Positions 26,529-62,447 of a stretch of 64,000 bases of DNA are shown in pieces. The DNA is taken from assembly GCF_027579695.1 (NCBI RefSeq), contig NC_083577.1, forward strand, positions 62,546,741-62,610,740. Reading direction: 5' to 3'. The notes under the pieces were generated by a model that was not told the origin of the DNA, ran no database searches, and saw nothing but the letters and a program-made list of their open reading frames with translations. Position 1 is the stretch's first letter; each line of letters opens with the position of its first letter. The position numbers and the translations under genes are program-made. This stretch comes from Neoarius graeffei. Taxonomy: Eukaryota; Chordata; Actinopteri; Siluriformes; Ariidae.

Positions 26529-27897
26529 ATGACTATATTTCTCAAGTTATTTCATTCACATCTGATATGATTGATAAGTGATGCTTTGTTATGAAATGAA
26601 AATTGTCTTAGAAGCTGCCTTACAGGACTAAATATCTCGACTCTCTACATCTTAAGGCTTTCCCAACTTCAGCTGCTGCTTTTGATGACTATCTGTTGCT
26701 TGTTCCATAGTCAATAAATTTTTTGTCTTGTTTTACTTACAGTATAGTCCTATAGCTATAAGAACCAGTAGTCAGTGGAAACTCTCAACTCTTTCATAAT
26801 TTTTTCATTTCAAAGGCTTGTTAGTGAAGATGAGTGAAGACTGACAGACCAATTAACTTGAGTCGAGGACAGGACAGATCCTATGGAGAAATGAAGAGAG
26901 GGCTTTTTTTAGGGAAGCTAATCAATTCAGTAATCTATAGCTTCAGTCAGCTCATTATTTAACAGATCTCATGTAGGGAGTTAATGATCAGATTCTGGTA
27001 ATGGGTTACTACATGTCATGACTGAGAATAAAACCATTCAGATCAAGCAAAGTAGGTAATGGCTTAATCTCTAAATAAAACGATCCTTTTTTTTTCATGA
27101 GCTGTTAGTCTTTCGCACCTGATACGCGTTGGGGATAAAACAGTCTCTCCATGCTCAGCAATATAACCTATAATCCCTTTCCTCCGTGGAACCTGGACTT
27201 CATCTGAGACCCCGTCCACACGTAGCCGGGTATCTGCTAAATCGAAGATATTTTTCTACGTTTTGGCCTGTCATCCACATGAAAACACATCAAAAACGAA
27301 TATTTAAAAAAACTCCGGGCAAAGTGAAGATTTTTGAAAACTCCGTGTATGCCTTTTCATGTAGACAGAGATAACCGGAGTTTTGCATTTTAGAATGTCA
27401 CAATCTGCGCCAAAAAAATGACAACAAATCTGCCCTGACGTCAAACGTGCGACCTTTGTTTACTGCAGAAGCCAGATTAAGCATGGACAAAGAGTAATGG
27501 ATCGGAGTAGTGCCTTAAAAGCGTTAATTATTGTGCAGGTGCTATTTACATGTTTAATTTTAGAAGCTCAACTACTGCTGATGTGATTAGGGGGTAGGAT
27601 TTGGGGAAATAATCCCATCTACAGGTTTGGAATGCTTATGAATGTGATTGAAAACGCAGATGTTCGGTTATGTGTGGAAGGGAATTTTTTCGAAGACGAG
27701 GTGGTGTGGATAAAACATTTTTATAAACGGAGGGGGGGAAAATGTTCGGTTTTAAAAATACCCGGCTACGTGTGTACATGGCCTGAGAGTTGCTGAGGGA
27801 TAGCAGAACAGTGGTCCCGGCATGCATGTCAAAAAATTTGGAAACCAGAGTTTTTTTATTGGCAGTGCCTTCCACTCGGAAGAGTGAGCAGCGTTCC
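26529..27897 (-). pseudogene. Tandem partial duplication of PDE11A intron 1 plus the 3' end of exon 1
   Basis: The block 26529-27897 is a diverged copy of 27898 to about 30297 (ignoring the SINE array and a MITE). Both start 'tgactatatttctcaagtta'. It contains a copy of the last ~190 bp of PDE11A exon 1 (27783 to about 27892 plus 27119-27208), with the donor 'cag|gtgcg' still present at 27119/27118. It encodes EGTANKKTLVSKFFDMHAGTT before a MITE cuts it. Past the MITE a one-base deletion (GTTTTATCCCC versus GTTAACATCCCC) shifts the frame. A Trp codon (tgg) is also changed to cgg. It is therefore a pseudo-exon in intron 1 of the functional gene. Confidence 0.85.
27209..27782. mobile_element. 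MITE inserted in the PDE11A pseudo-exon
   Basis: About 575 bp with inverted termini sharing ACACGTAGCCGGGTAT (left) and its complement ATACCCGGCTACGTGTG (right). The intact exon (about 30194) reads straight through the insertion point (catctgag|ttgctg), which proves insertion after duplication or into only one copy. There is a ctgag repeat at both flanks, but the target-site length is uncertain. No transposase frame. Confidence 0.8.
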
Positions 27898-28410: not shown

Positions 28411-30060
28411 CTTCAGATCATCCATCCATCCATCATCTGTAGCAGCTTATCCTGTCCTACAGGGTCGCAGGCAAGCTGGAGCCTATCCCAGCTGACTATG
28501 GGCGAGAGGCGGGGTACACCCTGGACAAGTCACCAGGTCACTGCAGGGCTGACACATAGAGACAAACAACCATTCACACTCACATAGGTCAATTTGGAGC
28601 CCCCAATTAGCCTAACCTGCATGTCTTTGGACTGTGGGGGAAACCGGAGCACCCAGAGGAAACCCTCGCAGACACGGGGAGAACATGCAAACTCCACACA
28701 GAAAGACCCTTGTTGGCGGCTGGGCTCGAACCCGGACCTTCTTGCTGTGAGGTGACAGCGCTAACCACTACACCACCGTGCCACCCCTTCAGATCATTCC
28801 TAAGCAAAGTAGATAATGACCTAATCTCTAAATAAAACCATCCATCCATCCATTATCTGTAGCCACTTATCCTGTTCTACAGGGTCGCAGGCAAGCTGGA
28901 GTCTATCCCAGCTGACTATGGGCGTGAGGCGGGGTACACCCTGGACAAGTCGCCAGGCTGACACAGAGACAAACAACCATTCACACTCACATTCACACCT
29001 ACGGTCAATTTAGAGTCACCAATTAGCCTAACCTGCATGTCTCTGGACTGTGGGGGAAACCGGAGCACCTGGAGGAAACAGACACAGGGAGAACATGCAA
29101 ACTCCGCACAGAAAGACCCTCGTCGGCCGCTGGGCTCGAACCCAGGACCTTTTTGCTGTGAGGTGACAGTGCTAACCAATACACCACCGTGCCACCCCTT
29201 CAGATCATTCCTAAGCAAAGTAGATAATGACCTAATCTCTAAATAAAACCATCCATCCATCCATCCATTGTCTGTAGCCACTTATCCTGTTCTACAGGGT
29301 CGCAGGCAAGTTGGAGCCTATCCCAGCTGACTATGGGCGTGAGGCGGGGTACACCCTGGACAAGTCGCCAGGCTGACACAGAGACAAACAACCATTCACA
29401 CTCACATTCACACCTACGGTCAATTTAGAGTCACCAATTAGCCTAACCTGCATGTCTCTGGACTGTAGGGGAAACCGGAGCACCTGGAGGAAACAGACAC
29501 AGGGAGAACATGAAAACTCTACACAGAAAGACCCTCGTCGGCTGCCGTGCTCGAACCCAGGACCTTCTTGCTGTAAGGCGACAGTGCTAACCAATACACC
29601 ACCGTGCCGCCCCTTCAGATCATTCCTAAGCAAAGTAGATAATGACCTAACCTCTAAATAAAACCATCCATCCATCGATCCATTGTCTGTAGCCACTTAT
29701 CCTGTTCTACAGGGTCGCAGGCAAGTTGGAGCCTATCCCAGCTGACTATGGGCGAGAGGCGGGGTACACCCTGGACAAGTCACCAGGCTGACACAGAGAC
29801 AAACAACCATTCACACTCACATTCACACCTACGGTCAATTTAGAGTCACCAATTAGCATAACCTGCATGTCTTTGGACTGTGGGGGAAACCGGAGCACCC
29901 GGAGGAAACAGACACAGGGAGAACATGCAAACTCTACACAGAAAGACCCTCGTCGGCTGCCGTGCTCGAACCCAGGACCTTCTTGCTGTAAGGCGACAGT
30001 GCTAACCAATACACCACCGTGCTGCCCCTTCAGATCATTCCCAAGCAAAGTAGGTAATGA
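28411..30060 (-). repeat. Four-copy 415-bp tandem array of a SINE plus intron sequence
   Basis: The first SINE (28422-28786) has an 11-bp duplication, cttcagatcat, at 28411-28421 and 28787-28797. The SINE together with about 50 bp of downstream intron ('aagcaaagtagataatgacc' block) is then repeated. Landmark positions 28621, 29037, 29452 and 29867 ('atgtctttgg/ctctgg') give spacings of 416, 415 and 415. Units 2-4 share a deletion in the SINE that unit 1 lacks ('ggtcactgcagg' segment missing), so unit 2 was the template for further expansion. Confidence 0.9.
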
Positions 30061-30107
30061 CCTAATCTCTAAATAAAACTATTCTTTTATTTTTCATTCT
30101 TTCGCAC

Positions 30108-30881
30108 CTGATACGCATCGGGGATGTTAACAGTCTCTCCATGCTCAGCAACATAACCTATAATCCCTTTCCCCCATGGAACCTGGACTTCATCTGAGTT
30201 GCTGAAGGATGGCAGGACAGTGGTCCCAGCGTGCACGTCAAAAAATTTGGAAACCAGAGTTTTTTTATTCGCAGTGCCTTCCACTAGGAAGAGTGAGCAT
30301 CGATCCGCATCGACCATGATGCATACAAACACCAGGATCTTGTAGCTCAGGCTGGTTAAATCCAGGTCATTGGAAATGTCTTTGACCAGCTCCAGGAAGA
30401 ACTCGCGCTCGTTGTGCTCTTTGAGGTAATATTTAAAGTCCACGGCGGTGGACGGATACTGTGGGATGTTGACTCGGGACTCGAGCAGAGCGGACAGGAT
30501 GTGTGCTGTGGTCGGGGGTAAGGAGCTGGCTTTCCTCAGCAAAGCGCGTCTCCGCATGCTGCTCAGCGGCTCCTGAGCTCGGGAGTTCACGTGCTCGTCG
30601 TACGTCCGGTTCGCGTTGACGGCTTTGGAGCGAGCGAAAGTTTTGCGCAGCTCTTTGTGCGATGCTCTCCGCTGCAGCCCGTCTCCTTTACTCGCCCAGC
30701 TGTCCTTACACACATGCGATTTCTCCGGGTCCGTCGTGGCAATTTTATATGCTTGGTGCGTTTTGAGCCATTTTTCTACCATACTGTATTTCCCTTTTCT
30801 GTTCAGATAGTCCTCAAACAACTCAGGGTGGTTATCCAGGAAAGTTTCAACATCCGAAAACACCATATTAGGCACCGCCAT
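30108..30881 (-). CDS. pde11a: PDE11A coding exon 1 (N-terminus and GAF-A, PDE11A4-type)
   Basis: The minus-strand ATG at 30881-30879 (strong context, aacaATGG) opens 258 codons to ...NIPDAYQ, where the donor cag|gtgcg at 30108/30107 ends the exon in phase 0. The start MAVPNMVFSDVETFLDNHPE corresponds to the long PDE11A4-type N-terminus. It lacks the Gly/Ser-rich insertion known from the human protein (residues about 45-70 here are a short Lys/Asp-rich stretch). RRAS at residues 71-74 and RKTF at 79-82 align with the human N-terminal PKA/PKG phosphorylation region (Ser117/Ser124), with Thr in place of the second Ser. GAF-A starts at about residue 160 (REFFLELVKDISNDLDL...DADRCSLFLVEG). The product would hydrolyse cAMP and cGMP. 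The next exon is at 23851-23693. Confidence 0.95.
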
Positions 30882-31300
30882 TGTTTATCACTTTACAGAA
30901 TAAACTGCCAATTTGGAGGAAGTGTTCGATACGCAAAAGAATTCAAGCTCGGTTTCTGCTGGAAGCAGACTAATAAAGCCCATGCATGCAACTTCAGCAT
31001 CCGTTTTGGTCCAGGTGATTCTGACCTGCCATGAAGTCCGCTTTCACTTCTCGCTTCCTGAACATCTCCACACAGTGTGGGACACGCCGAGGTTCCGGCT
31101 CCATGCTTGTGAGCGGACGCGCCAGAGAGAGCATCCTCTCGAATAACTTGAGCTTCCGCCTCATTGTGAACCGGAGCGCAGCATCAGCACCAGCGCGCTG
31201 AGCGAGCAGCAGAGCGTGTCGTAGATCCGCCAGTGACGTCAGATGATGCGCTCCTTTATGTCCAACCCACGTCACATCCACGTATTCCATGTCAGAAACG
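30882..31300 (-). promoter_or_regulatory. PDE11A 5' region with a consensus CRE
   Basis: A GC-rich, CpG-containing stretch upstream of the PDE11A start. A palindromic cAMP-response element TGACGTCA is at 31234-31241, about 355 bp upstream of the ATG. A 98-codon upstream frame (31290-30994) starts in a good Kozak context (gacATGG) and closes before the main ATG; it could be an uORF if transcription starts above it. The transcription start cannot be located from sequence. Confidence 0.55.
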
Positions 31301-31615
31301 CTCTCAGCAATGTTAATTAGGAAATAATGATTTGTTTCTTTAGGCTACTGCAGATTCAGAACAAGACATGTGGAGGGTTTTTTTTTCAACTGATATCACA
31401 GTGCTCTCAAATCAGATTTTAATTCCTCCCGACATGTACATGGAATTTTTCTTTCTTTCAACAACTATCTAGTGCTAATGTAGATAAAGGACTATGCATG
31501 GTGGTGAAAAAAAAATAAGAAAAAAGTTATCATTACCAAGCATGATTGACAGATCATTAGATGGATAGTTTAAGACACTCCCTTATTGTGAAATATAATA
31601 CGCCTCAATTATCAT

Positions 31616-35389: not shown

Positions 35390-36300
35390 TTGGTGAAAAG
35401 TATCATGATAATCCCATAGCTCGTGTTCTTGCATTATGTAAGAACTGGCCTCACTGTCCAGGCCGGTCGGGTCACCTTAGATAGAAAGGAAACAAAAAAA
35501 TCATTGATTGATTTTGTTTTTATATCTCAGGTCTGAGCAATACTGCAGTCATTTAGACTTTGAAAGATTCAATGTAATTAATAAATATGAAGTCCATTCT
35601 TCAAAATTATTGTTTTGAATGAATTTTATATAATGTATATACTTTTGCATACAGTTTTGAACAAATGATCTCCCTTTTGTATTTTGCATTGTCTTTGTGA
35701 ACAGAAAATATTGATAGAGGACAAAAGACATCTCAGCATGCACAAAATATCGAATCTTGAGGTGGTTGAGCTACAATAGCAGAAGACCGCATTGGATTCC
35801 ACTCCTCTCAGCCAAGAGCAGGAATCTGAGGCTGTCATGAGTCACCCCACAATGGACAGACTATTAAAAAAAAAAATCACCTAATTTTTTCCAGTCTTCA
35901 CTGTCCAGTTTTGGTGAATGTGAAATTCTCAAACCAGCCCATCTGGCACCAACAACTGCCACAATCAAAATCACAGAGATTACACTTTCCCCCATTCTGA
36001 TGTTTGATATGAATATTCACTGGAGCTCTTGATCCGTTTCTGCATTGTGCTGCTGCCACATGATTGGCTGATTCTATAACTGCATAAATGAGCAGGTGTT
36101 CAAGTGTTCCTATTAAAGTAACCAGTTCTCATTTAGTACTCAGAGTAAGTAGTGGACTACTTGTTGCAGTCCTTCAAAAAAAATACTAATAGAACAGCCA
36201 TAGTAATCGATTGCTCAATCCTGAATCAATTGTTATTTACATGTTGACATTTTACATATTTGCATATTATGATGTTATTACTAGTAATTACAATGTTACT
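35390..36300. other. No recognisable feature
   Basis: AT-rich intergenic sequence between the L2 3' end and the RBM45-proximal satellite. Only short chance frames are present. Confidence 0.5.
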
Positions 36301-36354
36301 TTTTATGCGGTCACATGCTTGGAAGGAAAGTAGGATTTATTCCTAATAATGTCT

Positions 36355-36536
36355 TCCAAGAAAGAAAGAAAGAAAGAAAGAAAGACTTTAATTTTGAAGC
36401 GTGGGCTTTGACGATAAAGCAGCGTTTGGACAGTAAACGGAACATTGGGCTTTTACTTGTTTTGCAGTTCAGTTACTTTGGTAAAGCTGTTGTTGCTTTG
36501 TTTTTAGGTGTTTTATTTGTATTTTGTCGAGTTAAA

Positions 36537-36593
<57 letters not shown>

Positions 36594-38794
36594 CTTTAAT
36601 TTAGACCAAACACTGCAGAAAGACTTTTATTCTGAAGCGTGGGATTTGACAATTTTGACAAGTTTGTTTTACAGTTACTTTAGTAAAGCTGTTGTTGCTT
36701 TGTTTTTAGGTGTTTTATTTGTATTTTGTCGAGTTAAAGAAAAAAAGAAAGACTAATTTAGCCCAAACACTGTGGAAAGACGTTTATTTTGAAGCGTGGG
36801 ATTTGATGATAAAGCAGTGTTCGGACAGTAGACGGAACATTGGGCTTTTACTTGTTTTGCAGTTCAGCTACTTTAGTAAAGCTGTTGTTGCTTTGTTTTA
36901 GGTGGTTTATTTATGTTCTGTACAATTAAAGAAAAAAGAAAGAAAGACTTTAATTTCGACCAAAAACTGCAGAAAAACTTTTATTTTGAAGCGTGGGATT
37001 TGACAATAAAGCAGTGTTCAGACAGTAGACAGAACATTAGGCTTTTACTTGCTTTGCAGTTCAGTTATTTTGGTAAAGTTGTTGTTTTGTTTTTAGGTGT
37101 TTTATTTGTATTTTGTCGAGTTAAAGGAAGAAAGAAAGAAAAAGAAAGACTTTTAATTTAGCCCAAACACTGTGGAAAGACTTTTATTTTGAAGCGTGGG
37201 ATTTGACAATTTTGACAAGTTTGTTTTAGTTACTTTAGTAAAGCTGTTGTTGCTTTGTTTTTAGGTGTTTTATTCGTATTTTGTCGAGTTAAAGAAAAAA
37301 GAAAGACTAACTTTCCACAGCCCAAACACTGTGGAAAGACTTTAATTTTGAAGTGTGGGATTTGACAATAAAGCAGTGTCGGACAGTAGACGGAACATTG
37401 GGCTTTTACTTGTTTTGCAGTTCAGTTACTTTAGTAAAGCTGTTGTTGCTTTATTTTAGGTGGTTTATTTATATTCTGTACAATTAAAGAAAAAAAGAAA
37501 GACTTTAATTTAGACCAAAAACTGCGGGAAAACTTTTATTTTGAAGTGTGGGATTTGACGATAAGGCAGTGTTTGGACAGTAGACAGAACATTGGGCTTT
37601 TACTTGTTTTGCAGTTCAGTTATTTTGGTAAAGTTGTTGTTTTGTTTTTAGGTGTTTAATTTGAATTTTGTCGAGTTAAAGAAAGAAAGAAAAAGAAAGA
37701 CTTTTAATTTAGCCCAAATACTGCGGAAAGACTTTTATTTTGAAGCGTGGGATTTGACAATTTTGACAAGTTTGTTTTACAGTTACTTTAGTAAAGCTGT
37801 TGTTGCTTTGTTTTTAGGTGTTTTATTTGTATTTTATCGAGTTAAAGAAAAAAAGAAAGACTAATTTAGACCAAACACTGTGGAAAGGCATTTATTTTGA
37901 AGCGTGGAATTTGACAATAAAGCAGTGTTCGGACGGTAGACGGAACATTGGGCTTTTACTTGTTTTGCAGTTCAGTTACTTTAGTAAAGCTGTTGTTGCT
38001 TTGTTTTTAGGTGTTTTATTTGTATTTTGTTGAGTTAAAGAAAAAAGAAAGACTACCTTTCCACTGCCCAAACACTGTGGAAAGACTTTAATTTTGAAGT
38101 GTGAGATTTGACAATAAAGCAGTGTTTGGACGGTAGACGGAACATTGGGTTTTTACTTGTTTTGCAGTTCAGTTCCTTTAGTAAAGCTGTTGTTGCTTTG
38201 TTTTAGGTGGTTTTTTATATTCTGTACAATTAAAGAAAAAAGAAAGAAAGACTTTAATTTAGACCAAAAGCTGCGGGAAAACTTTTATTTTGAAGCATGG
38301 GGTTTGACGATAAAACAGTGTTTGGACAGTAGACGGAACATTGGGCTTTTACTTGTTTTGCAGTTCAGTTATTTTGGTAAAGTTGTTGTTTTGTTTTTAG
38401 GTGTTTTATTTGAATTTTGTCAAGTTAAAGAAAGAAAGAAAGAAAGAAAGAAAGAAAAAGACTTTTAATTTAGCCCAAATACTGCGGAAAACTTTTATTT
38501 TGAAGCGTGGGATATGACAATTTTGACAAGTTTGTTTTACAGTTACTTTAGTAAAGCTGTTGTTGCTTTGTTTTTAGGTGTTTTATTTGTATTTTGTCGA
38601 GTTAAAGAAAAAAAGAAAAACTAATTTAGCCCAAACACTGTGGAAAGACGTTTATTTTGAAGCGTGGGATTTGACAATAAAGCAGTGTTCGGACGGTAGA
38701 CGGAACATTGGGCTTTTACTTGTTTTGCAGTTCAGTTATTTTGGTAAAATTGTTGTTTTGTTTTTAGGTGTTTTATTTGTATTTTATTGAGTTA

Positions 38795-38834
<40 letters not shown>

Positions 38835-39227
38835 AAAAAGAAAGAAAGAAAGACTTTTAATTTAGCCCAAATACTGTGGAAAGACTTTTATTTTGAAGCG
38901 TGGGATTTGACAATAAAGCAGTGTTCGGACAGTAGACGGAACATTGGGCTTTTACTTGTTTTGCAGTTCAGTTCCTTTAGTAAAGCTGTTGTTGCTTTGT
39001 TTTAGGTGGTTTATTTATATTCTGTACAATTAAAGAAAAAAGAAAGAAAGACTTTAATTTAGACCAAAAGCTGCGGGAAAACTTTTATTTTGAAGCGTGG
39101 GGTTTGACGATAAAGCAGTGTTTGGACAGTAGACGGAACATTGGGCTTTTACTTGTTTTGCAGTTCAGTTATTTTGGCAAAGTTGTTGTTTTGTTTTTAG
39201 GTGTTTTATTTGTATTTTATTGAGTTA

Positions 39228-39259
<32 letters not shown>

Positions 39260-39599
39260 AAAAGACTTTTAATTTAGCCCAAATACTGCAGAAATACTTT
39301 TATTTTGAAGCGTGGGATATGACAATTTTGACAAGTTTGTTTTACAGTTACTTTAGTAAAGCTGTTGTTGCTTTGTTTTTAGGTGTTTTATTTGTATTTT
39401 GTCGAGTTAAAGAAAAAAAGAAAAACTAATTTAGCCCAAACACTGTGGAAAGACGTTTATTTTGAAGCGTGGGATTTGACAATAAAGCAGTGTTCGGACG
39501 GTAGACGGAACATTGGGCTTTTACTTGTTTTGCAGTTCAGTTATTTTGGTAAAATTGTTGTTTTGTTTTTAGGTGTTTTATTTGTATTTTATTGCGTTA

Positions 39600-39647
<48 letters not shown>

Positions 39648-39824
39648 CTTTTAATTTAGCCCAAATACTGCGGAAAGACTTTTATTTTGAAGCGTGGGAT
39701 TTGACGATAAAGCAGTGTTCGGACAGTAGACGGAACATTGGGCTTTTACTTGTTTTGCAGTTCAGTTATTTTGGTAAAATTGTTGTTTTGTTTTTAGGTG
39801 TTTTATTTGTATTTTATTGAGTTA

Positions 39825-39868
<44 letters not shown>

Positions 39869-40050
39869 CTTTTAATTTAGCCCAAATACTGCGGAAAGAC
39901 TTTTATTTTGAAGCGTGGGATTTGACGATAAAGCAGTGTTCGGACAGTAGACGGAACATTGGGCTTTTACTTGTTTTGCAGTTCAGTTCCTTTAGTAAAG
40001 CTGTTGTTGTTTTGTTTTTAGGTGTTTTATTTGTATTTTGTCGAGTTAAA
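36355..40050 (+). repeat. Complex satellite of 19 units with higher-order structure and (GAAA)n tracts
   Basis: A unit of roughly 150-250 bp repeats 19 times, counted by the 'ttttgaagcgtgggatttga' landmark (approximate positions 36396, 36633, 36791, 36988, 37191, 37350, 37543, 37742, 37899, 38096, 38292, 38501, 38659, 38894, 39091, 39307, 39463, 39689, 39910). Each unit ends in a variable (GAAA)n tract. A short subtype lacking the 'ataaagcagtgttcggacag' part recurs at units 2, 5, 8, 12 and 16, giving a higher-order period of three to four units. Blocks at about 38461-38800 and 39270-39610 are nearly identical at 805-bp spacing. The last unit runs to within about 80 bp of the RBM45 start codon. 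Confidence 0.92.
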
Positions 40051-40130
40051 GAAAGGAGTAAACTTGCTAGGCGGTTTGTAATTTATCGGTTAGTGAGCTC
40101 GGAGGCTGAACAGTGCTGAGCGCAGTGAAA
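40051..40130 (+). promoter_or_regulatory. RBM45 5' flank / 5'UTR
   Basis: About 80 bp between the end of the satellite and the RBM45 ATG, moderately GC-rich ('ggaggctgaacagtgctgag'). It has no TATA box. Any core promoter must lie here or inside the last satellite units. Confidence 0.5.
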
Positions 40131-43100
40131 ATGGAGGACTATAACAGGCCGTCGTCTTACCTCGATGATCCCCCGAACAGCCGACTGTTTCTGGTCACCA
40201 GCAAATCCATCACGGAGGACACTATCCGGGAGCGGTTTTCCCCCTTCGGGGAAATCCAGGACATCTGGGTGGTAAAAGACAAACATACGAAAGAGTCGAA
40301 AGGAGTTTCTTTTGTGAAATTTGCCCGGTCCTCACAGGCCTGTACCGCCATGGAGGAAATGCATGGCAAGTGTCTGGCTGAAGGAACCAAACCCATTAAG
40401 GTGTGTTCAGGACAGTGCTTTTCTCTCTGTTATTGCATTCTTTTTTTTTTCTTTCCTCCAGACCAGTGAAGTGTTTCACTCAAATTGTGACCGGAAGTGT
40501 GTTTCTATTTCTATGAATAGTTTGTTTAAAAAAAAAAACAACAACACAGTTGTCGTTCTCATCAGACCGTCTGGTCTCTTTGCTTGGACAGGTTTTCATC
40601 GCCCAGTCCAGATCTTCTGGGAGCCACAGAGACGTGGAGGATGAGGAGCTGACCCGAATCTTTGTCATGATTCCCAAAACATTTACTGAAGATGACCTGA
40701 AGGAGACCTTCAAGGTATAACAATAACATCGTGTAAAGATATGACCTTTTTTTATAATTATTATTTCTTATTAGGACATTTGGGGACAGTACGGTGGTGT
40801 AGTGGTTAGCACTGTCCCCTCACAGGAAGAAGGTTCTGGGTTCGACGGGGCCTTTCTGTGTGGAGTTTGCATGTTCTCTCCACGTCTGTGTGGGTTTCCT
40901 CCGGGTGTTCCGGTTTCCCCCACAGTCCAAAGACATGCTGTTAGGTTAACTGGCTATTCTAAATTGCCCGTAGGTCTGAGTGTGCGTGTGTACGAGTGCG
41001 CAGGAAGGAACCAGCCAAGGAACTGCCGCAGTTCTGGCCAAGTCAACCAAACACGGTTCGCCTCCAAACAGATGGATTTTACTGGTGAAAAATGCACACA
41101 GTTCAGCGTGCACCAGTGTCCAAAAAAGTAGTCCCTTTTACTGGTACAAAAACATCTCATCTCATTATCTCTAGCCGCTTTATCCTGTTCTACAGGGTCG
41201 CAGGCAAGCTGGAGCCTATCCCAGCTGACTACAGGCGAAAGGTGGGGTACACCCTGGACAAGTCGCCAGGTCATCACAGGGCTGACACATAGACACAGAC
41301 AACCGTTCACACTCACACCTACGGTCAATTTAGAGTCACCAGTTAACCTAACCTGCATGTCTTTGGACTGTGGGGGAAACCGGAGCACCCGGAGGAAACC
41401 CACGCGGACACGGGGAGAACATGCAAACTCCACACAGAAAGGCCCTCGCCGGCCACGGGGCTCGAACCCGGACCTTCTTGCTGTGAGGCAACAGTGCTAA
41501 CCACTACACCACCGTGCCGCCGGTACAAAAACTTTTTTTTTAAAATGCAAGCAGTAGTTCAAGACAAGTTTGCACTGTTTTAATGTTATAAAGTCAAAAG
41601 AAGTGAGCATACCATTAGTGGAAGTGAAAGACTACCGTTTTCATTGCCAAGTCGTATAGACAGTCCTTGCCATATGTGGCACTTCATTGCATTACATTAA
41701 TGGCATTTAGCAGATGCTCTTATCCAGAGCCACACACCCAGAGCAGCCTGGGGAGCATATGAGGGTTAGGTACCTTGTTCAGGGGCACTTCAGTCATTCA
41801 TGCTGGTCCAGGGAATTGAACTGGCAACCATTTGGTACCAAAGCTGCTTCACTAACCTTTAGACCAGGGGTGGGCAATTATTTTTTCCATGGGGCCACAT
41901 GAGAAACAGAAAATTTTGTGGAGGGCCGGACCAAAAGGCTGAACTAAATTCTGCATAATATATTAATTGTATTTCTTTATATAAAGCAATAAATAACATT
42001 GTTTTTACAAGCTGCTAAGACTAGTAAGAGTATGGAAAAAAAACGAGGTTGCCTGACAAAAAATGTCATTTATTCAATCAAATTTTCCAAAACAATGGTT
42101 AACAAAATGTGAATGTTTGCACCTTTTTTTTTTTTCAGTCAAATTCACCCCAAAACACAATAAAGACATCACAATATTGTCTTTCTACTCCAAATATCAA
42201 GCAAGATGCATCATATTATAATAATGATGCCCACATTTGTAGTCTAATCACCTCATTTGGTGTTTTTCAGTTTTTTTATTTGTTCACTGAGAGAAATCTA
42301 GTCTCTGTTGGTCTTTAACGAGTGCATCAGAGTCAGGTTGAATGTCTGAGGTGGAGATGCGAAGCACAGCTGACAGATGATCATCAGTCGATTCGGTGTA
42401 GGTATCAGATCTACAGATCGGCTCGGGCTCCGGCTGGTGACGTCACACTATGTGATTGGCTGGACCGTTTGAAGGATGACGTACAAGTTTGTGGTTGGTC
42501 TGGACAAATTACGGAAGTAGTTATCGCGGGATTAGGTTTCGTGGGATTTCATGTCATGTTCATGTCGCGCGCATTGCGTTTTTTTGAACACAACTTCAAA
42601 ATAAAAGCAATGCACATTCAGTCCATGCATGAGGTAAAATTAGAAAATACGTTTATTTTGTAATTTCTAATTAACCTTACGTGGGCCAGTCAGAATGAAC
42701 CAAAGGGCCAGATGTGGCCCGCGGGCCGTAAAATACCCAGGTCTGCTTTAGACCATGGCTTCCCCCACTTCACATAATTTTTATACTTAATTTTTATAGT
42801 CTTTGTCATGCATCTGAATTGAATTGAATTAAATTAAAATTAAACTTTCTTCAACTTGGGAGGGGTCAAACTCTCATAAAACCATGTCACAGCTGTGTGG
42901 ATTTTTACTCCTCATGTCATTTCACTGAAGAGATGAATCAGGTGCTTTGAACAGATAAATAGCCAATTGGCTTATTTGTGATTTATTGATTTTTACATAT
43001 AGTCTACTAACCCCTCTATGAAAAACAATGCATTTCTTACGAAAGATTGATTGATTAATAACTACTTTATCCTGGGCAGGGTTGTCAGTGTATCACAGGG

Positions 43101-60690: not shown

Positions 60691-60712
60691 GTATATAATC
60701 TCACACAGCACA

Positions 60713-62316
60713 CAGTGGGGCAAAAAAGTATTTAGTCAGCCACCAATTGTGCAAGTTCTCTCACTTAAAAAGATGAGAGAGGCCTGTAATTTTCATCATA
60801 GGTACACTTCAACTATGAGAGACAGAATGGGGGAAAGAATCCAGGAAATCACATTGTAGGATTTTTAATGAATTAATTGGTAAATTCCTCGGTAAAATAA
60901 GTATTTGGTCACCTACAAACAAGCAAGATTTCTGGCTCTCACAGACCTGTAACAACTTCTTTAAGAGGCTCCTCTGTCCTCCACTCGTTACCTGTATTAA
61001 TGGCACCTGTTTGAATTCGTTATCAGTATAAAAGACACCTGTCCACAACCTCAAACAGTCACACTCCAAACTCCACTATGGCCAAGACCAAAGAGCTGTC
61101 AAAGGACACCAGAAACAAAATTGTAGACCTGCATCAGGCTGGGAAGACTGAATCTGCAATAGGTAAGCAGCTTGGTGTGAAGAAATCAACTGTGGGAGCA
61201 ATTATTCGAAAATGGAAGACATACAAGACCACTGATAATCTCCCTCGAGCTGGGGCTCCACGCAAGATCTCACCCCGTGGGGTCAAAATGATCACAAGAA
61301 CGGTGAGCAAAAATCCCAGAACTACACGGGGGGACCTAGTGAATGACCTGCAGAGAGCTGGGACCAAAGTAAGAAAGGCTACCATCAGTAACACACTATG
61401 CCACCAGGGACTCAAATCCTGCAGTGCCAGACGTGTCCCCCTGCTTAAGCCAGTACATGTCCAGGCCCGTCTGAAGTTTGCTAGAGAGCATTTGGATGAT
61501 CCAGAAGAGGATTGGGAGAATGTCATATGGTCAGATGAAACCAAAATAGAACTTTTTGGTAAAAACTCAACTTGTCGTGTTTGGAGGAGAAAGAATGCTG
61601 AGTTGCATCCAAAGAACACCATACCTACTGTGAAGCATGGGGGTGGAAACATCATGCTTTGGGGCTGTTTTTCTGCAAAGGGACCAGGACGACTGATCCG
61701 TGTAAAGGAAAGAATGAATGGGGCCATGTATCGTGAGATTTTGAGTGAAAACCTCCTTCCATCAGCAAGGGCATTGAAGATGAAACGTGGCTGGGTCTTT
61801 CAGCATGACAATGATCCCAAACACATCGCCCGGGCAACGAAGGAGTGGCTTCGTAAGAAGCATTTCAAGGTCCTGGAGTGGCCTAGCCAGTCTCCAGATC
61901 TCAACCCAATAGAAAATCTTTGGAGGGAGTTGAAAGTCCGTGTTGCCCAGCGACAGCCCCAAAACATCACTGCTCTAGAGGAGATCTGCATGGAGGAATG
62001 GGCCAAAATACCAGCAACAGTGTGTGAAAACCTTGTGAAGACTTACAGAAAATGTTTGACCTCTGTCATTGCCAACAAAGGGTATATAACAAAGTATTGA
62101 GACGAACTTTTGTTATTGACCAAATACTTATTTTCCACCATAATTTGCAAATAAATTCTTTAAAAATCAGACAATGTGATTTCCTGGGTTCTTTCCCCCC
62201 ATTCTGTCTCGCATAGTTGAAGTGTACCTATGATGAAAATTACAGGCCTCTCTCATCTTTTTAAGTAGGAGAACTTGCACAGTTGGTGACTGACTAAATA
62301 CTTTTTTGCCCCACTG
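60713..62316 (+). mobile_element. Tc1-like transposon with intact transposase
   Basis: About 1604 bp with terminal inverted repeats beginning CAGTGGGGCAAAAAAGTATT (right complement identical for the first ~20 bases). They extend inward for roughly 140-200 bp (shared 'gaaaattacaggcctctctc' type blocks). The flanks read ca...tg rather than the canonical TA, so the TA target site may have mutated. It encodes the open transposase at 61078-62100 between the repeats. Confidence 0.9.
61078..62100 (+). CDS. Tc1/mariner-superfamily transposase (DD34E), full length
   Basis: An uninterrupted 340-residue protein catalyses cut-and-paste transposition at TA sites and acts in the nucleus. N-terminal paired HTH DNA-binding motifs: about residues 10-55 ([18 protein letters not shown]) and about 65-115 ([12 protein letters not shown]). 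A GRP-like linker (RAGAPRK) is at about 57-63. Catalytic triad: D153 in [12 protein letters not shown]244 in [12 protein letters not shown]279 in NPIENLW, with 34 residues between D244 and E279. The length and the three positions equal those of Sleeping Beauty-type fish Tc1 transposases. The Gly-rich box ([17 protein letters not shown]) is at 187-203. ATG at 61078 lies just after the left inverted repeat. No stop or frameshift is seen, unlike the copies at 8078-9093 and 33430-34340. Confidence 0.95.
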
Positions 62317-62447
62317 TGTGTGCGTGTGTATTTTTTTTTTTTGTTTTTGTCTAATTAGTATTGCCGTGATTCAGCACTGTATGGATTTCTGAAGTGAAAC
62401 CCTTGCTACAGTCCTTATCTTAATTCATCTGTATAGACACAGACAAT

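Follow-up and report, generated by a model that had tools for sequence, protein, structure and literature searches.

A tandem array of satellite-size units with a higher-order pattern next to RBM45 in Neoarius graeffei

How does a tandem array of variant units, ordered in a higher-order pattern, come to lie directly in front of a protein-coding gene, and does it matter for that gene? The question is raised by a locus of Neoarius graeffei (assembly GCF_027579695.1, contig NC_083577.1), of which we analysed a stretch of 64,000 nucleotides, referred to here as the window. Within it, 19 related units in tandem fill positions 36358-40054 on the plus strand, which is also the strand of the adjoining gene, RBM45, as located by approximate-match anchors, core motifs and TRF. 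In our view the array is probably a locus-level tandem repeat, built of satellite-size units and grown next to RBM45.

The unit count of the original prediction was confirmed by two motifs. The anchor GAAGCGTGGGATTTGAC (at most 4 errors) has 19 matches from 36396 to 39910, which lie 157-238 bp apart, and the 3' core motif also matches 19 times, once per anchor. Full units are about 197 bp long and short ones about 157 bp. The cores measure 139-142 bp (short type: 104-106 bp), and each is preceded by a linker (51-97 bp for U2-U19), in which a GAAA-type tract is combined with a short unique stretch. An (AAAG)n tract at 36358-36385 (plus strand, TRF) opens the array, and the linker in front of the U1 core (36396-36537, plus strand, full type F) is truncated, being shorter than the other linkers. 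This first GAAA tract defines the array start at 36358; some of the array computations took 36346. Pure GAAA runs on the plus strand range from 3 copies, the minimum of the search, to 13 copies at 36540-36591, and further runs comprise 11 copies at 39602-39645 and 10 copies each at 39827-39866 and 38797-38836, the latter being among the longer ones. A 34-base core word has 14 matches with at most 3 mismatches, every one of them inside the array, compared with 0.00 expected from 100 shuffles; the matches lie in the 14 full-length units, and the five short units are without the word.

The array ends at about 40054, and the RBM45 start codon lies at 40131. The intervening gap of 76 bp (40055-40130, plus strand), close to the 80 bp originally proposed, is non-repetitive; from its sequence and its CpG observed/expected ratio (o/e), it is possibly the 5'UTR and/or the core promoter of RBM45. 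The identity of the gene itself held: the coding part of exon 1 (40131-40400, plus strand) encodes RRM 1, matching PDB entries 7csz (E 2.7e-50) and 7csx (E 3.7e-50) and the Pfam family RRM_1. At the other end of the intergenic interval, a GAF domain is encoded at 30087-30884 by a minus-strand exon, which has the cGMP-specific phosphodiesterases (PDE5) as its best solved relatives. We tentatively take this exon to be PDE11A, in view of the nature of that protein and of the vertebrate gene order, in which RBM45 and PDE11A are neighbours. If its first Met (30881) is the start, the PDE11A-like gene and RBM45 stand head to head, with about 9.25 kb between the two start codons, and the array sits at the RBM45 end of the interval. 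In chicken somitogenesis, RBM45 has been described as a candidate cyclic gene (available part of PMC4871587), which has no connection to the array.

The surroundings of the PDE11A-like exon contain several further elements. Directly upstream of it, a CpG-rich open frame of 116 residues occupies 30994-31344 on the minus strand, with CpG o/e of 1.01 and 1.04 in the 300-bp bins at 31001 and 31051. Directly downstream, at 28419-30079, a 415-bp dispersed repeat is present in four tandem copies; its matches merge to 18 places in the window, this four-copy array included. A second, partial copy of the end of the exon region (about 210 bp, 91-92% alike) lies at 27109-27208 and 27787-27897, split by an insert of 0.58 kb with inverted ends (50 bp, 76% alike). 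Elsewhere in the window, a Tc1/mariner element at 60709-62320 has inverted repeats that are 90% alike and about 212 bp long, and it carries an open transposase frame, of which 340 residues were scanned (Sleeping Beauty HTH, DDE_3).

The cores of the array fall into four types: S, which is short; G, with GGTGG and GTACAATTAAAG; D, without three bases after GGTAAA; and F, the full type. The units follow each other in the order F SGD SGD SFGD SDGD SDDF, in which U15 was typed F by script and reassigned to D by eye, and this corrected order was used for the type-letter tests and the block comparison. After U1, the order forms five blocks on the plus strand, the cores of which span 36634-37126 (U2-U4), 37191-37681 (U5-U7), 37742-38430 (U8-U11), 38502-39230 (U12-U15, with U15 typed by eye) and 39307-40051 (U16-U19), the fifth adjoining the RBM45 end. 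The short units are U2, U5, U8, U12 and U16, so that a short subtype indeed recurs every 3-4 units as first noticed, with spacings of 3, 3, 4 and 4; that all spacings fall at 3-4 by chance has a probability of about 0.0066. Pure GAAA runs of at least 3 copies occur only after D or F cores, the opening tract excepted.

Does the order of the units form a true higher-order pattern? At a distance of four, units resemble each other more than in shuffled order, which is what such a pattern entails. Mean core identity at lag 4 was 95.1% against 92.8% for the shuffled order (p=0.0002 from 5000 shuffles, nominal for 11 lags), and the last 36 bp of 18 linkers gave 90.1% against 85.1% (p=0.0026, nominal for 8 lags). 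The linker ends do not enter the core comparison. The last 75 bp of the cores pointed in the same direction (p=0.011, nominal for 8 lags and overlapping with the core test), and the type letters alone, a weaker support, matched at 7 of 15 positions (p=0.036, nominal for 12 lags). Lag 3 was not significant in any of these four tests (p 0.24-0.75), and the three-unit period of the first half thus rests on its first two blocks, i.e., on two copies recognised by inspection. The higher-order organisation claimed at the outset is therefore borne out by the excess identity at lag 4 in both cores and linkers. The four-unit period is the solid part of the pattern, which by type order is found mainly in the RBM45-proximal half.

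All ten block pairs are 93-96% alike after shortening the GAAA runs. A nearly duplicated block had been proposed at 38461 and 39270; the pair exists at an offset of 809 bp, but the two stretches, 38461-39269 and 39270-40070, the second of which extends 16 bp beyond the array, are only about 95% alike (with GAAA runs shortened, 690 of 723 compared bases; 736 of 766 in the unshortened alignment). Within this pair, U12-13 and U16-17 with their linkers agree at 349 of 351 compared bases (99.4%, GAAA runs shortened). We read the relationships between units from pairwise identities. Cores of the same subtype are 95.7% identical (40 pairs) and those of different subtypes 91.9% (131 pairs), with subtypes that were themselves defined from the same sequence. 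Nor are the subtypes cleanly nested, as F-S pairs (96.2%, with S having no columns for its missing stretch) exceed F-F (94.8%) and D-D pairs (94.3%).

Several other features of the array were recorded. Its GC skew on the RBM45 strand is 0.33-0.48 in 500-bp bins, a strong strand bias. The linkers before U6 (37311-37338) and U10 (38057-38084) contain CTTTCCACAG...CTGTGGAAAG, a 10-base hairpin, recognised by eye and by pattern, with one mismatch in the second, where the remaining linkers have AATTTAG or AATTTCG. Judged by sequence, the two hairpins look like a template-switch change common to two higher-order copies. Inverted repeats of at least 12 bases within a distance of at most 30 were not found in 36300-40140. 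An RNA gene in the array was considered and rejected, with 0 Rfam matches at gathering score across the whole window, as was a coding array, the single open frame scanned (144 residues) giving no Pfam family.

The ends of the array suggest how it may have begun. At the left end stands a GAAA tract, and TTAAAGAAA closes the last core; in the cores generally, a terminal TTAAAG leads into A- and GAAA-rich sequence. Misalignment between the opening tract and the GAAA-rich core ends would give a simple route to the first duplication, in which the GAAA tract on the left would have paired with the GAAA-like core end (TTAAAGAAA) on the right. The array could then have grown via its GAAA linkers, and later slippage together with unequal exchange or conversion may have copied whole blocks of 3-4 units, which would produce the higher-order pattern.

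Alternatively, the array could belong to a satellite family that is dispersed or genome-wide, or consist of repeats carried by a mobile element, and lie beside RBM45 by chance. The unit length near 197 bp and the higher-order pattern do resemble satellites, and many other mobile repeats occur within the window. However, U9 with its linker found no second copy in the remaining 60 kb of the window (best match E=0.41), the array begins and ends at GAAA-related sequence, and terminal repeats are not apparent by eye; we regard this origin as rather unlikely. Viral and prokaryote collections were also scanned for exact words, with 0 matches, a result of little weight for a vertebrate repeat.

A further possibility, compatible with a locus-level repeat, is that the array acts as a cis-regulatory element, with factor sites in the units and a copy number that tunes RBM45 transcription. 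The short distance to the ATG and the raised CpG o/e of the array speak for it, as does the correlation with expression reported, in the available part of PMC8096271, for human VNTR genotypes, including VNTRs upstream of genes. Tandem repeats near genes are, on the other hand, common in at least one fish: they abound upstream of cod genes, with 42,244 counted within 2 kb upstream of annotated genes in the portion of PMC5241972 at hand. Among the literature matches listed, none concerned a repeat at the RBM45 promoter. A bacterial promoter scan of 39900-40150 returned nothing, and its bacterial model is uninformative for a vertebrate. We judge a regulatory role of this kind unlikely.

The CpG profile bears on this question in part. 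The o/e is raised over the gap and exon 1 (1.04 in 40000-40199 and 0.64 in 40200-40399), and the array, which is AT-rich, has 0.85, compared with 0.47 for the whole window and 0-0.53 for four bins of 200 bp on its left side. Three array bins near the gene (39400-39999) reach 1.11-1.52, and the bins at 36400 (1.18) and 38600 (1.23) are equally high. Since the high bins are scattered and the counts small (1-7 per 200 bp), a gradient toward RBM45 is not supported; the number of CpG per full unit rises weakly toward the gene, without significance (rho 0.41, p=0.15, n=14 full units). The raised array CpG could fit a recent origin or low germline methylation, and the latter, if the cause, would fit a regulatory region. 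By a loose rule, 19 of the 68 variable columns are of CpG type, among 195 counted; this count omits the first 75 columns of the five short units, which are misaligned, as well as the last unit's 3' end and any column with over 6 gaps. Of 12 CpG sites in the full units, 5 occur in a single unit and the other 7 all vary to TG or CA between units. Because the o/e of the array stays high, CpG decay gives no firm conclusion on germline methylation, and the array CpG level does not locate the transcription start site. An extension of the regulatory idea holds that the array descends from a single unit which was RBM45's native proximal promoter region, that amplification to 19 units multiplied promoter-proximal elements, that array length and order now set expression, and that the CpG level reflects an unmethylated, active array. 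We find this version improbable.

The units might also have been falsely multiplied or collapsed during assembly. Tandem arrays are a known assembly problem, and the gaps of the first cod assembly were largely associated with them, according to the accessible text of PMC5241972. The units differ at many positions, however, and the blocks are not identical, which makes it unlikely that one read was falsely duplicated; the number of copies could nevertheless be wrong. We give an assembly artefact little credence overall. The confidences placed in these alternatives are not mutually exclusive.

Acceptor-like tracts had been noted in each unit. Such tracts are present, but not in every unit: TTGTTTTTAG has 15 copies in the array of 19 units, and TTGTTTTGCAG has 13, plus one TTGCTTTGCAG, with the five short units containing neither of the latter two. 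The tract as first quoted, tttgttttgcag, has 0 occurrences in the array, the actual one being TTGTTTTGCAG. On approximate splice-site matrices, sites scoring at least 8 occur at 8.63 per kb on the plus strand of the array against 1.63 per kb on the rest of the plus strand, and there are 0 on its minus strand; this density arises because the unit is repeated. When the last unit with its linker was compared with its own 1000 dinucleotide shuffles, the acceptor count was near chance at scores of at least 7 (P=0.19), 8 (P=0.09) and 9 (P=0.28), with a mild enrichment at a score of at least 6 (4 sites, P=0.024). The two U19 tracts score 8.6 and 10.3, compared with 7.4 for the acceptor of RBM45 exon 2. 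Among donors, the array reaches 5.1 at best, compared with 9.3 for that of exon 1. The tracts thus appear to be near chance within one unit, their number in the array following from repetition, and good donors are missing. That units are spliced into RBM45 5'UTRs through these tracts, a reading that is compatible with a locus-level repeat and finds favour in the U19 scores and the mild enrichment, is most doubtful, given the near-chance counts at higher scores, the lack of a strong donor in the array and a CpG o/e of 0-0.53 at 35800-36399, i.e., no CpG-rich start upstream.

Under the preferred explanation, a locus-level tandem repeat grown next to RBM45, the array would by default be without dedicated function, and any effect on RBM45 would be a by-product of spacing, chromatin or copy number. 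If the copy number varies, the locus would offer a natural allele series beside an RNA-binding protein gene for testing a promoter-flank repeat. Otherwise, it would be an example of higher-order organisation arising in a small gene-flanking array.

Among known systems, the array can be compared with locus-specific VNTRs and small arrays of satellite-size units near genes, with which it shares tandem, variant units, a position near a gene start and occurrence at one place in the window, as seen in the one assembly sequence analysed. By its unit of about 197 bp and spacing of 157-238 bp, it belongs to the satellite class (above 100 bp) and not to the minisatellites (10-100 bp), as these are delimited in the part of PMC5241972 available. 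Alpha satellite and other centromeric higher-order satellites also have variant monomers of similar length in a repeating order. However, centromeric satellite arrays are of megabase scale, as stated in the excerpted text of PMC4053949, whereas this array comprises 3.7 kb, adjoins gene sequence and has an irregular multi-unit period (3, 3, 4, 4). Higher-order organisation had been taken as typical of centromeric satellites, but it is not confined to them, being described also in human simple-sequence and LTR arrays (PMC2588610, as far as its available text goes). The human arrays, together with the higher-order triplets of NBPF gene arrays (PMC9584774 and PMC10475015, in the parts at hand), are like the present array in having higher-order organisation without a centromere role. 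They are set apart by description, having other unit lengths and another sequence origin, and the NBPF repeats are parts of genes. Both higher-order repeats outside centromeres and repeats upstream of genes are already in print.
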